Positions 838-12,986 of a DNA stretch of 64,000 bases are shown piece by piece. Source of the stretch: Nocardioides sp. (GTDB lineage Bacteria > Actinomycetota > Actinomycetes > Propionibacteriales > Nocardioidaceae); contig JAICHQ010000005.1 in the NCBI GenBank assembly GCA_025924815.1, positions 1-64,000 on the forward strand, given 5' to 3'. Position 1 is the first letter of the stretch; each line of letters begins with the position of its first letter. A program made the translations under genes and the position numbers. The notes beneath the pieces are model-generated. The model was not told the origin of the DNA, made no database searches, and saw only the letters and a list, made by a program, of their open reading frames with translations.

Positions 838-859
838 ACGCTAGACCCGGCCACCGACA
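838..859 (-). promoter_or_regulatory. RecA-NDp (PafBC-type) promoter of recA
   Basis: Read on the minus strand, the octamer TGTCGGTG (859-852) is followed by exactly 8 nt and then TAGCGT (843-838). This matches the published mycobacterial LexA-independent damage promoter consensus tTGTCRGTG-N8-TAnnnT except for the first base. It sits about 78 bp upstream of the recA ATG, so it would give a leadered transcript with the Shine-Dalgarno seen before 760. Confidence 0.8.
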
Positions 860-928: not shown

Positions 929-944
929 CCGAACACGTGTTCGA
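929..944 (-). promoter_or_regulatory. LexA-binding SOS box upstream of recA
   Basis: The sequence contains GAAC-ACGT-GTTC at 931-942, flanked to give CGAACACGTGTTCG. This is the actinobacterial/Bacillus-type SOS box consensus CGAAC-N4-GTTCG. On the recA strand a TAGATT hexamer (926-921) lies just downstream, so bound LexA would cover the spacer of a second recA promoter. The divergent GNAT gene starts 77 bp away on the other side and could also be affected. Confidence 0.85.
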
Positions 945-3652: not shown

Positions 3653-4801
3653 TCATGCGCGAACCGCCAGTGCGGCCAGCCACGGCTCCCGCTCGCTGCC
3701 CTCGGTGCGCACGACCTCGCGGACCGACCAGCCCGCCGCCTCCAGGGCCGAGCGCAGCGGCTCCTCGCGCCAGAACGTGAAGAACCGGGGCGCGGTCACG
3801 TTGCCGTGGATCGACCAGTCCTCGCCGTCGCCCTCCTTGACCGACACGAACAGCCCACCACCGGGCCGGGTCGCCCGGGCGAGCCGCGCCAGAACGGTCG
3901 GCAGGTCCTCGCGGTCGACGTGGAGCAGGCTCGCGTCGGCCCAGACCCCGTCGTACGCCGCCTCGGGCGTCGCCGGGTCGGCCAGGTCGTCGACGAGCGG
4001 GTCGAGCCGGTCGGCCACCTGCCCCCTGGCTCTGAGCAGGTCGACGAAGGCCGGCGTGATGTCGGTCCGGCGCACCGACAGCCCGGCCTGCTCGAGCGCC
4101 AGCGCGTCGCGACCCGAGCCGCTGCCCACCTCCAGCACCCGGCTGCCGGGCGGGACGACCCGGACGAACCGCCCGATCGCCGAGGCGATCGCCGCCGGCA
4201 GCTCCTGGGTGCGTTCGAGGTAGTCGGTCGCTGACGCGTCGTACGCGCGGACCGTCGCCGACCGCGCGGCATGCCGAACATCGTGCAGGTGGTGGACCAC
4301 GTCATGCAGCTGGTAGCGCGCGAGGCTCTCGATCGTGAAGCCGCTGCCGTCGCTACGCCTCCCCTGCCGGTGCCACGCCAGCGGCGGAACGGAGTCGTAG
4401 AGGTCTCCGATGGCGTACGCCGCGGCGACCAGCGTGGGCCCGACGATCGCCGGCAGCTGGTCGGCGTAGCGTCCATCGACAGCCGACCGGTCCTGATCCC
4501 AGTCGTCGAAGACCGGGTCGTCCTCACCGAGCATCTGGGTCACCCGGTCGTGGTAGATCTGGTGGACGTCGTGCACGTGGCAGGCGTACTCCAGCGTCGA
4601 CCAGCGATCGGCGCGGATGCGCTCGCCGGCGCTCGGGTCGGCCAGGAGCGCGAACCACACGTGGGCGTTCTTCCGGAAGGCCCGCGGGATCGCGTGGCGG
4701 TCGTACGCCGAGGCGTCGAAGCCGCACTCGTCGCAGGGCCGGTCGAGCACCCAGGTCCAGTCCTTGGTGTCCGGTTGGAGGCTCACCGGCTCGCGCGTCA
4801 C
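3653..4801 (-). CDS. DinB-like domain fused to a class I SAM-dependent methyltransferase
   Basis: The N-terminal ~185 residues form a helical DinB/maleylpyruvate-isomerase-type domain with conserved histidines (WSTLEYACHVHDV, and HDVVHHLHDV near 170-180) that could bind a metal. Residues ~200-380 are a Rossmann methyltransferase, with motif I VLEVGSGSGRDAL near 220 and a VWADASLLHV segment. An N-terminal cysteine pair (CDECGF) could add a metal site. No substrate can be assigned. The GTG start at 4801 is preceded by CAGGAT ending six bases upstream, a weak version of the leaderless -10 pattern. It ends 7 bp before DUF3046. The fusion is treated as a finding. Confidence 0.82.
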   Translation of the reverse strand: MTREPVSLQPDTKDWTWVLDRPCDECGFDASAYDRHAIPRAFRKNAHVWFALLADPSAGERIRADRWSTLEYACHVHDVHQIYHDRVTQMLGEDDPVFDDWDQDRSAVDGRYADQLPAIVGPTLVAAAYAIGDLYDSVPPLAWHRQGRRSDGSGFTIESLARYQLHDVVHHLHDVRHAARSATVRAYDASATDYLERTQELPAAIASAIGRFVRVVPPGSRVLEVGSGSGRDALALEQAGLSVRRTDITPAFVDLLRARGQVADRLDPLVDDLADPATPEAAYDGVWADASLLHVDREDLPTVLARLARATRPGGGLFVSVKEGDGEDWSIHGNVTAPRFFTFWREEPLRSALEAAGWSVREVVRTEGSEREPWLAALAVRA

Positions 4802-4846: not shown

Positions 4847-5641
4847 TCAAGTCAGCAGCAGCGTGTCGAGCCGGCGCCGTACGACGAGCAGGCCGAACAG
4901 CCCCATCGCGACCAGGTAGCCCACCGAGACCGCCGACTCCCAGGTGAGCGCACCGGTGGTGAGCTCGCGGCAGAGCACGACGCCGCGGTAGAGCGGCGTC
5001 GCCTCCACGGCCCACCGCAGCACGCCGTGGAACGCGGTGACCGGGAAGAAGGTGCCGGAGAAGAGGAACATCGGCAGCTGCAACAAGGTGATCTTGTCGA
5101 AGTCCTGCCACGACGTCATCCAGGTCGTCAGCGCCATGCAGACCGCGCTGAAGGCGAAGCCGATCAGCAGCGTGGCCGGGAACGCGAGCACGGCCCACCA
5201 CGAGTGCACCAGCCCCATCGCCCACATCACGGCCAGGAAGGCCACGGAGTAGGACGCGCCGCGGAGCTGCCCCCAGATGATCTCGCCCCGGGCGATGTCG
5301 GAGGTCGTCAACGGGGTGGCGAGCATCTGGTCGTAGAGCTTCTCGTAACGCAGCTTGAAGAAGACGTTGAAGGTGCTGTCCAACAGGGCGCCGTTGAACG
5401 CCGACGCCGCCAGCATGCCGGGCGCGACGAACTCGGCATAGGGGATCGAGTGGCCGTTGACCTCGAAGCCCGGGATCAGCTTGCCGACCCCGATGCCGAT
5501 CGAGAACAGGTAGAAGACCGGCTCCAGGAAGCCGGTGAGGAAGAGCTTCCACTGCGTGCGGTAGGTGATGTAGTTGCGGAGCACCAGCAGCCGGGTGCCC
5601 TCGAGTCGCCTCAGCGGAGAGGAGGTCGAGATCGCCGTCAC
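4847..5641 (-). CDS. ABC-2 type transporter permease (second of a pair)
   Basis: This 264-residue permease has six predicted membrane segments. The ABC-2 core includes a cytoplasmic loop LRYEKLYDQMLATPL and the PLYRG segment before the last helices. It belongs to the DrrB/NodJ-like group that forms the membrane half of drug, antibiotic or polysaccharide exporters. The GTG start at 5641 overlaps the upstream permease stop by 4 bp (GTGA), so translation is coupled. With the gene at 5638-6474 it would form a heterodimeric channel driven by the ATPase at 6474-7427. Confidence 0.9.
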   Translation of the reverse strand: MTAISTSSPLRRLEGTRLLVLRNYITYRTQWKLFLTGFLEPVFYLFSIGIGVGKLIPGFEVNGHSIPYAEFVAPGMLAASAFNGALLDSTFNVFFKLRYEKLYDQMLATPLTTSDIARGEIIWGQLRGASYSVAFLAVMWAMGLVHSWWAVLAFPATLLIGFAFSAVCMALTTWMTSWQDFDKITLLQLPMFLFSGTFFPVTAFHGVLRWAVEATPLYRGVVLCRELTTGALTWESAVSVGYLVAMGLFGLLVVRRRLDTLLLT

Positions 5642-6474
5642 TGCGCGAGCCTCCGCTCCAGCGTGCGGGTCGCCACCCGCCACCCGACCACCAGCACCGC
5701 CACGAGGACCCCGACGTTGACCAACGCGAGGCTGCCGTCGACGTGGTCGAGGCAGAGCATCCGGGTCAGGTTGACGCCGTGCCACAGCGGCGTCACCTTG
5801 GCCACGGCCTCGAGCACAGGACCGAGGTTGCTGATCGGGAAGAACGAGCCCGAGAACAAGAACAGTGGGATCAGCCCGAGGCGGAAGATCAGTCCGAAAG
5901 ACGCCTCACTGCGGATGAAGGCGCTGAACGCGAACGTCCAGACCGCGAACGCCATCCCGGTCAGCAGGGTGACCGGGAACGCGAGGACGGGCCCCCACCA
6001 GCTGGCGAACACCCCGAACGGGGCCATCACCACCAGGTAGACCGCACTGGTCGAGGCGACCCGGAACAAGGTGAAGGCGAGCATCGCGTTGGCCAGGTCG
6101 CGCGCCTCCAGCGGGCTCGCGAGCTGGGCGTAGAAGCTCTTGTGCCACTTCAGGGCACCCATCACCGGGTACGTCGTCTCCAGCACCGCGGTCTGCATCG
6201 CCTGGGCCGCGACCAGACCCGGGACGATGAAGGCGAGGTAGGACGTGGCGCCCTCCAGCCGGGAGGGCGGCGAGTGGACGAAGCCGCCCAGCAGCACGCC
6301 CATCGCCAGCACGTAGAGCAGGGGTGAGGCGAACGAGGTGATGATCGAGCTCTTCCAGGTGCGCTTGTAGACCGTCCACCAGTAGTCGTACTGGCGGACC
6401 ACGCCCCGCCACGGACTCAGCCGCCGGTCGTCGCGCACGACCGCGTCGGTGGCGCCTGTCGAGACCACGGCCAT
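5638..6474 (-). CDS. ABC-2 type transporter permease (first of a pair)
   Basis: The 278-residue protein begins MAVVSTG. After a soluble N-terminal stretch of about 45 residues it has six hydrophobic segments of the ABC-2 membrane domain, with LKWHKSFYAQLASPL in the first loop and PLWHGVNL before the last helices. It is paralogous to the next permease. The ATG at 6474 shares one base with the ATPase stop (TGATG), giving tight coupling. The cargo of the exporter is unknown; DrrAB-type systems export hydrophobic drugs or lipids. Confidence 0.9.
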   Translation of the reverse strand: MAVVSTGATDAVVRDDRRLSPWRGVVRQYDYWWTVYKRTWKSSIITSFASPLLYVLAMGVLLGGFVHSPPSRLEGATSYLAFIVPGLVAAQAMQTAVLETTYPVMGALKWHKSFYAQLASPLEARDLANAMLAFTLFRVASTSAVYLVVMAPFGVFASWWGPVLAFPVTLLTGMAFAVWTFAFSAFIRSEASFGLIFRLGLIPLFLFSGSFFPISNLGPVLEAVAKVTPLWHGVNLTRMLCLDHVDGSLALVNVGVLVAVLVVGWRVATRTLERRLAQ

Positions 6475-7427
6475 CAGTCCACCAGCGTCCGTCCGGTCAG
6501 CCGCAGGAAGACGTCCTCGAGCGTCGAGCGGCGTACGAGCGTCGCGATCGGCGTCAGCCCGCGCGCGTGGACCTGCTCCAGGACGTGCTCGCCGTTCTCG
6601 CTGTAGACCAGCAGCCGGTCGGGCAGCACCTCCACCCGCTCGCCCAGGTCGGAGACCTTCTCCGCCGTCGCGTCGTGGTCGCCGACCGGGAAGCGCAGCT
6701 CGGCCACCTCGCGCGTCGAGTGTGCGCGGATGAGCTCGAGCGGCGAGCCCTCCGCCGCGATCACGCCGCGGTCCATGACCACGAGCCGGTCGCAGAGCTG
6801 CTCGGCCTCGTCCATGTAGTGCGTGGTGATCACCAGGGTCACACCCTGCTGCTTGAGCCGGAACAGCCGGTCCCACAACACATGGCGCGCCTGCGGGTCG
6901 AGGCCGGTGGTGGGCTCGTCGAGGAGCAGGATCTCGGGCCGGTTGATGAGCGAGCGGGCGATGGTCAGCCGGCGCTTCATGCCCCCGGAGAGGCTCTCGA
7001 CCTTGGCGTCGCGCTTCTCGCCGAGCTGGACGAACTCCAGGAGCTCGTCGGCGCGCTCGCGCACCTCGCGCTTGGGGATGCCGAAGTAGCGGCCGTAGAT
7101 GTAGAGGTTGTCGAAGACGTTCAGCTCGTTGTCGAGGGTGTCCTCCTGCGGGCAGACGCCGAGCCGGGAGCGGATGGCCGGACCGTGCTCCGCAGGGTCC
7201 ATCCCGAGGATGCGCAGCTCGCCCGCGGTCACCGGCGACACCGCCGCGATCATCCGCATGGTGGAGGACTTGCCGGCGCCGTTGGGGCCGAGGAAGCCGA
7301 ACGCCTCGCCCCGGCGTACCTCGATGTCGATGCCCTTGACCGCCTCGACGGTGGCACCCGACTTGTCGTCGAACGACTTGCGCAGTCCGCGGGCCGAGAT
7401 CATGGCGTCGCTGGTCAGGTCTGGCAC
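6474..7427 (-). CDS. ABC transporter ATP-binding protein, DrrA-like
   Basis: This 317-residue ATPase has Walker A GPNGAGKSS, Q-loop CPQEDTLD, signature LSGGMKRR, Walker B ILLLDEPTTGLDP and switch histidine TTHYMDEA, followed by the C-terminal DrrA-type extension to ...GRTLVD. It energises the two permeases that follow without gaps. The GTG at 7427 was chosen because a perfect TAGGGT -10 ends eight bases upstream; the ATG at 7403 (MISARGLRKSF) is the alternative and lacks a clear ribosome-binding site. The promoter carries a RecA-NDp-like octamer, so the exporter may be damage-inducible. Confidence 0.92.
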   Translation of the reverse strand: MPDLTSDAMISARGLRKSFDDKSGATVEAVKGIDIEVRRGEAFGFLGPNGAGKSSTMRMIAAVSPVTAGELRILGMDPAEHGPAIRSRLGVCPQEDTLDNELNVFDNLYIYGRYFGIPKREVRERADELLEFVQLGEKRDAKVESLSGGMKRRLTIARSLINRPEILLLDEPTTGLDPQARHVLWDRLFRLKQQGVTLVITTHYMDEAEQLCDRLVVMDRGVIAAEGSPLELIRAHSTREVAELRFPVGDHDATAEKVSDLGERVEVLPDRLLVYSENGEHVLEQVHARGLTPIATLVRRSTLEDVFLRLTGRTLVD

Positions 7428-7435
7428 GTTGACCG

Positions 7436-7457
7436 ACCCTACAAACGACCGCCGACA
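7436..7457 (-). promoter_or_regulatory. RecA-NDp-like promoter of the ABC exporter operon
   Basis: On the minus strand TGTCGGCG (7457-7450) is followed by exactly 8 nt and then TAGGGT (7441-7436), which ends 8 nt before the GTG at 7427. The arrangement equals tTGTCRGTG-N8-TAnnnT with two differences in the first element (its optional first base, and T to C at the seventh base of the octamer). The same octamer is found facing lhr in the same intergenic region. Confidence 0.55.
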
Positions 7458-7577
7458 TGAGGACAGTCGTTTCCCGGTCCACGGTGGCGCTGCTGATCCC
7501 GCCCCACCCAGCCCGGTGGAAGATCCACGATTCCGGGACCCAGAACGGTGGACAACCCACCGCCGCCCGCTCTTCGC

Positions 7578-7599
7578 TGTCGGCGGCGTGAGCAAGGAT
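7578..7599 (+). promoter_or_regulatory. RecA-NDp-like element upstream of lhr
   Basis: TGTCGGCG (7578-7585), 8 nt, then AAGGAT (7594-7599), which ends exactly 6 nt before the lhr ATG at 7606. The octamer is identical to that of the divergent ABC operon. AAGGAT departs from TAnnnT at its first base and could equally be read as a Shine-Dalgarno, so the call is tentative. Confidence 0.4.
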
Positions 7600-7605
7600 G
7601 GAGCC

Positions 7606-12180
<4,575 letters not shown>

Positions 12181-12194
12181 CGATGTGGTGATCG

Positions 12195-12986
12195 ATGCCT
12201 GAGGGCGACACCGTCTGGCGCGCCGCCCAGCTGCTCGACGGGGCACTGAGCGGCAAGGTCCTGACCCGCACCGACGTCCGGGTGCCGGCGTACGCCACCT
12301 GGGACCTGGCCGGTGCCCGGGTCGTGGAGACCGTCTCGCGCGGCAAGCACCTGCTCACCCGCATCGACGGCGAGCGGCGCTGGACGCTGCACACCCATCT
12401 GAAGATGGAGGGCGGCTGGAGAGTCCTGCGACCCGGCGGGCGCTGGCCGCGCCCGGCCCACACAGCCCGGGTGATCCTGGAGACCGCCGACACCGTCGCG
12501 GTCGGGTTCCAGCTGGGCATCGTCGAGCTCGTGGCCCGCGAGGAGGAGGACACGATCGTAGGTCACCTCGGCCCCGACCTGCTCGGCCCCGGCTGGGACG
12601 CCGCCGAGGCGGTTCGGCGCCTGCACGAGCAGCCGGACCGCGCGATCAAGGAGGCGCTGCTCGACCAGACCCGGCTGGCGGGCGTCGGCAACATGTACGC
12701 CTGCGAGCTCCTGTTCCTCGCCGGGGTCGCCCCGGAGACCCCGGTCCGAGCCGTTCCCGACCTGCTGCGGATGGTCGAGCGCGCCCACCAGCTGCTCGAC
12801 CACAACCGTCATCGCGCGGTGCAGTCCACCACCGGTGACCTGGCCCGGGGGCGCAACCTGTGGGTCTACGGGCGCGGTGGACAGCCCTGCCGTCGCTGCG
12901 GCACGCCGATCGTGGAGGCGACCCTGGGCGACGCGGGACGCGCACGGGTCACCTACTCATGCCCGAGCTGCCAGCCCGCTTCGTGA
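12195..12986 (+). CDS. nei: Fpg/Nei family DNA glycosylase (endonuclease VIII)
   Basis: This 263-residue base-excision repair enzyme has the catalytic Pro2-Glu3 (MPEGDTVW; the initiator Met is removed so Pro becomes N-terminal) and the conserved TRLAGVGNMYA helix-two-turn-helix. A C-terminal zinc finger has CRRC and CPSC pairs. A glycine-rich GRGGQPC region precedes the finger. Nei-type enzymes remove oxidised pyrimidines and nick the abasic site. It follows lhr closely and in the same direction. Its TGA overlaps a short TGAGCTCA palindrome that also contains the stop of the convergent lipoprotein gene. Confidence 0.95.
   Translation: MPEGDTVWRAAQLLDGALSGKVLTRTDVRVPAYATWDLAGARVVETVSRGKHLLTRIDGERRWTLHTHLKMEGGWRVLRPGGRWPRPAHTARVILETADTVAVGFQLGIVELVAREEEDTIVGHLGPDLLGPGWDAAEAVRRLHEQPDRAIKEALLDQTRLAGVGNMYACELLFLAGVAPETPVRAVPDLLRMVERAHQLLDHNRHRAVQSTTGDLARGRNLWVYGRGGQPCRRCGTPIVEATLGDAGRARVTYSCPSCQPAS

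Follow-up and report, generated by a model that had tools for sequence, protein, structure and literature searches.

Two outward-facing promoters of the RecA-NDp/PafBC type were found in the 178-bp gap between a three-gene ABC exporter operon and the operon lhr-nei2 of Nocardioides sp. From the comparison of orthologous promoters, the exporter is a probable recurrent member of the PafBC regulon, and cells would probably make the pump upon DNA damage. We consider it very likely that the exporter and lhr-nei2 stand under separate PafBC-dependent promoters, are transcribed as leaderless mRNAs and are damage-induced together with the recA regulon. The main find is the exporter promoter, rather than the lhr side. 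The claim made here is broader than that of an earlier note on this DNA: judged by sequence, the exporter site is present in several actinobacterial families, and many orthologues are without it.

Layout of the divergent region

All positions refer to the window, i.e. the whole stretch of 64,000 nucleotides that was analysed. The divergent gap 7428-7605 separates the exporter operon (minus strand) from lhr-nei2 (plus strand). The octamer TGTCGGCG occurs once per strand in this gap, at 7457-7450 (minus) and 7578-7585 (plus), and from each copy a spacer of exactly 8 nt leads to a -10-like hexamer. The exporter hexamer is TAGGGT (7441-7436, minus), 8 nt ahead of the GTG at 7427, and the lhr hexamer is AAGGAT (7594-7599, plus), 6 nt ahead of the ATG at 7606. 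Octamers, strands, spacers, hexamers and start codon distances are exactly those given in the earlier note. Its statement that recA in the same window carries the canonical form was also confirmed, the recA element being TGTCGGTGGCCGGGTCTAGCGT at 859-838 (minus). The features are as follows.

838..859, minus: recA RecA-NDp promoter, canonical TGTCGGTG-N8-TAGCGT, used as the in-window comparison
929..944, plus: LexA (SOS) box near recA, one mismatch to TCGAAC-N4-GTTCGA
4847..5641, minus: ABC-2 permease 2 (Pfam PF01061), GTG overlapping the stop codon of permease 1
5638..6474, minus: ABC-2 permease 1 (Pfam PF01061), ATG overlapping the stop codon of the ATPase gene
6474..7427, minus: exporter ABC ATPase, starting with GTG and probably leaderless
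7436..7457, minus: predicted promoter core of the exporter operon, RecA-NDp/PafBC-type, TGTCGGCG-N8-TAGGGT, from pattern and conservation at exporter orthologues
7470..7472, minus: AAA of an A-rich box, -31 to -29 as counted from the start of the -10 hexamer, enriched at exporter promoters
7578..7599, plus: predicted lhr promoter core, RecA-NDp/PafBC-type, TGTCGGCG-N8-AAGGAT, hexamer beginning with a base other than T, retained upstream of lhr in 47 of 68 regions of the genus
7606..12180, plus: lhr helicase with Lhr winged-helix domains (Pfam, NCBIfam)
12195..12986, plus: nei2-like glycosylase/AP lyase gene, 14 nt behind lhr

The consensus of the LexA box is TCGAAC-N4-GTTCGA. With up to three mismatches allowed, no LexA (SOS) box was found in 7428-7605, as expected for LexA-independent control of the two operons.

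Occurrence of the element in window and genome

The RecA-NDp consensus octamer is tTGTCRgtg, as quoted in PMC5656591. The exporter octamer TGTCGGCG agrees with it except for one substitution (T to C); the base ahead is A and not t, at a weak, lower-case position. The earlier note had assigned the RecA-NDp architecture to both sites. This holds in full for the exporter site, where TAGGGT follows after 8 nt and fits TAnnnT, and for octamer and 8-nt spacer of the lhr site, whose AAGGAT lacks the first T of TAnnnT. The T-to-C change shared by both octamers, pointed out earlier, is not special: C occupies this position in 6 of the 14 strict sites of the genome, the exporter site included.

The count of the bare octamer in the window is not very remarkable (18 against 9.65 expected; 1 of 100 shuffles as high). 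Octamer-N8-TAnnnT occurs twice in the window, at recA and at the exporter, with 0.03 expected, and TGTCRGYG-N8-TAnnnT was found 14 times in the 3.29 Mb draft genome compared to 0 times for the reversed pattern. The octamer arrangement at the exporter and lhr is not due to chance. Inclusion of the lhr site required loosening of the hexamer to NAnnnT, which gave 75 matches in the genome versus 5 for the reversed pattern. Since the lhr site fails TAnnnT and the loose form matches this often, it has to be judged by conservation and not from its own genome alone.

Putative PafBC regulon of the genome

The repair genes behind the 14 strict sites encode RecA, UvrB, RadA, DnaX, an Mfd-like protein, an AlkZ-like glycosylase, a DEDD/GIY-YIG exonuclease and a PD-(D/E)XK nuclease. 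RecA, RadA and UvrB were named by NCBIfam; UvrB (131 aa, at a contig end) and the Mfd-like protein (cut by the locus end) are fragments scoring below the cut-offs. The remaining sites precede genes for a DUF6504 protein, an EamA transporter, an alpha/beta hydrolase, two proteins without Pfam match and the exporter ATPase. A start codon lies 6-8 nt past the hexamer at 10 of the 14 sites, as for a leaderless transcript, and farther away at recA (77 nt), the Mfd-like gene (56 nt), the DUF6504 gene (110 nt) and one unnamed gene (156 nt).

Two adjacent WYL-domain proteins are encoded on contig C96, followed by tatA- and tatC-like genes. We take this pair to be adjacent pafB- and pafC-like genes, the adjacency and the tat-like neighbours matching the pafB-pafC arrangement.

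The site of the EamA-family transporter (locus L002, C4:62719-62740 of the same genome, minus) is a complete RecA-NDp-type element at a distance of a few nt from the GTG start, which makes this a second transport gene in the putative regulon. Two near-matches were seen elsewhere in the window. At 41396-41375 (minus), CGTCGGCG-N8-TAGGGT lies 6 nt before the ATG of what is presumably a thymidylate synthase gene and is one base off the RecA-NDp element. At 43045-43024 (minus), CGTCGGTC-N8-TAGCGT lies 6 nt before another ATG, with C replacing the first T.

Conservation of the exporter promoter

Orthologues of the exporter ATPase were present in 82 of 116 relatives and in 90 of 296 genomes of a class sample; from the latter figure, the exporter is dispensable. 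For promoter analysis, 156 exporter upstream regions were taken, which are related by descent, so that counts over them are not independent. The matches of 12 of the 82 relatives and G120 were left out, G361 contributes two regions, and three regions were oriented by the strand of the match.

The strict element is present in 33 of the 156 regions versus 35 of 36,660 random 180-bp windows from the same fetched loci. Scores above the 99% level of 12,250 random windows were reached by 95 regions and scores above the 99.9% level by 27; because the random windows may still hold some true sites, this control is conservative. The 33 strict regions comprise 20 from the genus, 1 from the rest of its family and 12 from five other families (f3, 5; f34, 3; f38, 2; f18, 1; f21, 1). 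An assignment of f3 to Streptomyces was dropped as wrong or at least lacking support: for each of the 16 f3 regions, Kribbella steppae is the nearest named relative. The strict pattern is missing from 123 of the 156 regions, 61 of which fall under the 99% level of the random windows. Families without a site above this level are f25 (10 of 10 regions), f6 (3 of 3) and nine families of one or two regions each.

Among 80 named loci, 58 were scored (left out: L245, L282, L287, L288, L293-L298, L300-L311), and 10 of these carry the strict element: two Nocardioides MAGs, Amycolatopsis pittospori, A. eburnea, two Microtetraspora, Agromyces, and MAGs of Pseudonocardia, Cryobacterium and Actinomycetales. 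Near forms were found in Kribbella steppae (TGTCGGCT), Nocardioides terrigena (TGTCGGTC) and in Micromonospora chokoriensis and Salinispora (both TGTCGGAC). Scores did not exceed 8.4 in six loci of Arthrobacter and in Sinomonas, Zhihengliuella, Kocuria and Micromonospora rosaria. The strict element is absent from the scored orthologues of Chloroflexi, Acidimicrobiia and Spirochaetes MAGs (highest score 10.1). A PafB-like protein is encoded in 79 of the 80 exporter genomes searched; thus, presence of PafB failed as a discriminator.

The spacing of the element is fixed. When gaps of 3-15 nt were allowed between TGTCGG and TAnnnT, the gap at the exporter was 10 in 64 of 64 occurrences. For an alignment free of octamer selection, upstream regions were anchored on TAnnnT and an in-frame start codon only, which was possible for 139 of 156 regions (17 had no anchor). 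Columns -16 to -11 of these anchored promoters spell TGTCGG. The hexamer TGTCGG is found in the N10 register in 66 of the 139 (28 of 56 in the genus, 38 of 83 outside) and in none of 27 other registers. The earlier note had named loss of the octamer-N8 spacing in related genomes as an observation that would speak against its reading; the spacing is conserved both at the exporter and at lhr.

A further signal was found upstream of the core. In exporter promoters with a core (n=62), A occupies positions -31 and -30 from the -10 hexamer in 66% and 80% of cases, compared to 16% and 7% for lhr (n=68), 3% and 10% for recA loci (n=30) and 28% and 28% for the strict sites of the own genome (n=14). The triplet AAA lies within -33 to -27 in 50 of the 139 anchored exporter promoters (11 of 56 in the genus, 39 of 83 outside). 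For the windows -40 to -34, -47 to -41, -54 to -48 and -26 to -20, the numbers are 1, 2, 5 and 0 of 139, respectively, and 13 of 139 for -24 to -18. The window copy of this box is the AAA at 7472-7470 (minus). With a transcript start at the start codon, the box would be located near -43 and might serve as an UP element or as the site of a second regulator.

Since both operons look leaderless and many exporter promoters have an A-rich box resembling an UP element, TGTCGG-N10-TAnnnT might be a strong SigA promoter type used generally by leaderless genes of these GC-rich genomes, unlinked to damage. Against this, a control of 93 other genes from the same loci with TAnnnT 6-8 nt before the start yielded only 2 with TGTCGG in register, an exporter gene missed by the filter and, as the sole non-exporter, the exonuclease with a site of the own regulon. 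Six of these 93 genes have the AAA box. Furthermore, repair genes are frequent behind the 14 genomic sites, and we rate such a general promoter form as very unlikely.

The lhr promoter

In total, 90 lhr upstream regions were obtained, 68 from 69 matches in the genus and 22 from 40 others of the order. TGTCGGYG-N8-NAnnnT is present near the start codon in 47 of the 68 and in 9 of the 22, respectively. The gap between TGTCGG and NAnnnT before lhr is 10 in 68 of 84 occurrences and thus not exclusive. While A2 and T6 of the lhr hexamer were imposed by the search pattern, positions 3 and 4 were left free by it and are G or A in 52 and 54 of the 56 conserved sites, respectively. The first base is T in 4 of the 56 sites and non-T in 52. 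Because of this, the missing first T is a feature of lhr promoters and not a flaw of this copy, and AAGGAT is a usual lhr form. The lhr site is best called a variant, which would work like a RecA-NDp promoter. The distance from the hexamer to the first ATG or GTG is 6 or 7 nt in 48 of the 56 sites.

AAGGAT could also be mainly a ribosome-binding sequence, with the octamer upstream being coincidental, as AAGGATGGAG resembles a Shine-Dalgarno site. Orthologous hexamers include CAGACT, GAGGAT, CAAGAT, GAGACT and TAGGTT; CAGACT, GAGACT and TAGGTT among them keep A2 and T6 without a purine run and at unchanged distance from the octamer. On the evidence of these CAGACT-type orthologues, the ribosome-binding explanation was rejected as highly improbable.

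The lhr product contains the domains PF00270, PF00271, PF19306, PF23236, PF23235, PF23234 and PF08494, which cover the helicase core and the winged-helix part, and scores 1777.7 against NF007284 (cut-off 1496). The nei2-like protein scores 323.6 bits against NF040775, below the cut-off of 400, and its Pfam domains Fapy_DNA_glyco and H2TH are above cut-off. The nei2-like gene presumably shares an operon with lhr.

Adjacency and octamer variants

Six genomes of the genus (G000, G004, G028, G040, G058 and G061) have lhr and the exporter in divergent orientation with their starts no more than 300 bp apart. Elsewhere, the exporter retains its element beside other neighbours, and among the flanks of 37 named exporter loci lhr was found in 2 and recA in 1, all Nocardioides. 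As the exporter retains the element in genomes with lhr at another place, the pairing of the two genes is, by this comparison, incidental.

These genomes bear on two other explanations. Being identical and inverted within the 178-bp gap, the two octamers could form one operator for a single local regulator of both operons. However, each octamer stands at a fixed distance from its own -10 where the genes are apart, and TGTCGGYG is kept at both genes in four of the six adjacent genomes (G000, G040, G058, G061), but not in G004 and G028. A shared operator is extremely unlikely and was rejected on the conservation in genomes with the genes apart. Alternatively, only the lhr side might be a live PafBC promoter, with the exporter octamer being a relic or a neighbourhood effect of the shared 178 bp. 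This would agree with lhr-nei2 as the established target, as reported in PMC11323726, and with the absence of TGTCGG from half of the anchored exporter promoters of the genus. It is at odds with an exporter element that is kept without lhr as neighbour, other families included, and with an exporter -10 closer to the consensus than the lhr -10. We judge a relic very improbable and retain two separate promoters as the explanation.

In nine genomes (G007, G012, G017, G019, G022, G030, G045, G046 and G053), lhr has a changed octamer, for example TGTCGGAC or TGTCGTAC, and the exporter element is either modified or lost. Clade-wide octamer drift, or a general change of PafBC specificity, was ruled out as a cause since recA in these nine genomes is unaltered (TGTCGGTG or TGTCAGTG). 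Considering these nine genomes together with the half of the genus promoters that lack TGTCGG and the families without a site above the 99% level, membership of the exporter in the regulon appears to depend on lineage, being gained or lost.

The recA loci L222, L223 and L224 (genomes G051, G025 and G064) have TGTCGGAC-N8 in place of TGTCGGTG, which suggests that changes at octamer positions 7-8 are tolerated. Further recA variants are TGTCGGAG in G054, and TGTCCGAC and TGTCCGTC in two f3 genomes.

The exporter operon

The genes for ATPase, permease 1 and permease 2 overlap by start and stop codons in the window, and the three stay together in 37 of 37 named actinobacterial loci whose neighbourhood was examined (of 80 named loci). 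The label 'DrrAB-type' used earlier is loose. An ATPase of the DrrA/NodI kind and ABC-2 permeases are indeed encoded, but the curated cut-offs were not reached: the ATPase scores 272.9 versus 312.45 for drrA (TIGR01188), and the permeases score 56.9 and 56.3 versus 223.05 for drrB (TIGR01247), so that the operon does not classify as a DrrAB exporter. Among proteins of solved structure, those closest to the ATPase in sequence are ABCA lipid transporters.

The nearest named locus of the ATPase is a Nocardioides MAG (91% identical). Identity is 57-79% in the other named loci examined, except for one MAG with the ATPase split in two pieces, and the permeases drop to about 27-55% identity outside Nocardioides-type loci. 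The stronger divergence of the permeases fits a conserved motor with changing substrate parts, which the operon may represent.

A gene for a 382-aa protein with a C-terminal methyltransferase domain (3653-4801, minus) starts 45 nt behind permease 2. It was considered as a fourth operon member and discarded for lack of conservation: the methyltransferase recurs in 4 Nocardioides-type loci among the 37 named loci, in addition to one weak 30% match in an Arthrobacter locus.

Proposed mechanism and significance

Two RecA-NDp promoters would give rise to leaderless mRNAs whose 5' ends coincide with, or lie beside, the start codons of lhr-nei2 and the exporter operon. DNA damage would produce single-stranded DNA, upon which PafBC would let SigA-RNA polymerase use the octamer instead of a -35 element. 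Both operons would be switched on with recA, uvrB, radA and others, independently of LexA. Activation by ssDNA-bound PafBC is inferred from mycobacterial work. According to PMC11804915, ssDNA-bound PafBC makes SigA polymerase use promoters with a -26 motif; transcription in vitro with SigA-RNA polymerase, PafBC and ssDNA was carried out there on a template derived from recA. The exporter would most likely remove DNA-damaging small molecules or toxic damage products during repair.

A more far-reaching proposal, which we offer tentatively and regard as possible rather than probable, is that actinobacteria carry an old export arm of the damage response. It would consist of a stand-alone three-gene ABC-2 pump, controlled by PafBC sensing of ssDNA and an exporter-specific A-rich input. 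Being induced by damage and not by any one drug, it could protect from unknown genotoxins, the ATPase being conserved and the permeases changing fast.

If true, damage sensing would be linked directly to export in actinobacteria, giving a drug-independent switch for an efflux pump. Amycolatopsis and Micromonospora are genera known for antibiotic production, and the link would include antibiotic-producing genera such as these. The exporter promoters offer targets for testing PafBC outside mycobacteria.

Comparison with known systems

As the named loci contain no Streptomyces, the conclusions are not extended to this genus. The record on PafBC outside mycobacteria is mixed. A RecA-NDp promoter has been described for the UV-induced gene SCO6735 of Streptomyces in PMC5087735 and PMC9411070. 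According to a 2022 study (PMC9380542), an initial search found the M. smegmatis PafBC motif not to be conserved in Streptomyces venezuelae, and the pathway was left open there. A report of a PafBC-controlled exporter was not found in a literature search that did not cover the mycobacterial target lists of Muller 2018 and Gamulin 2004; either may contain a prior description.

From DrrAB and NodIJ ABC-2 exporters, with which it shares a single DrrA/NodI-like ATPase and permeases of the ABC-2 type (PF01061), the operon differs by two different permease genes and by scores under the curated nodI, drrA, nodJ and drrB cut-offs for all three proteins. SCO6735 of Streptomyces coelicolor is similar in having a RecA-NDp promoter outside mycobacteria at a UV-induced gene that is not a classical repair gene (PMC5087735); it encodes a macrodomain hydrolase, whereas the window operon encodes an exporter.

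On the lhr side, the damage-response target proposed in the earlier note is supported by PMC11323726, which describes lhr-nei2 as PafBC-regulated in mycobacteria; as a PafBC target, lhr-nei2 is already known. Gene order and damage-response promoter are like those of the M. smegmatis operon, and the difference is that six genomes of the genus start the operon within 300 bp of a divergent exporter. The putative regulon as a whole resembles the mycobacterial RecA-NDp/PafBC regulon in the TGTCRG octamer, the 8-nt spacer, TAnnnT, the repair genes, lhr-nei2 as a target and the lack of a LexA box between the operons. It differs in having T or C at octamer position 7, a start codon 6-8 nt past the hexamer at 10 of 14 sites, an lhr -10 lacking the first T, an A-rich box in many of the exporter promoters, and an ABC-2 exporter as a recurrent putative target.
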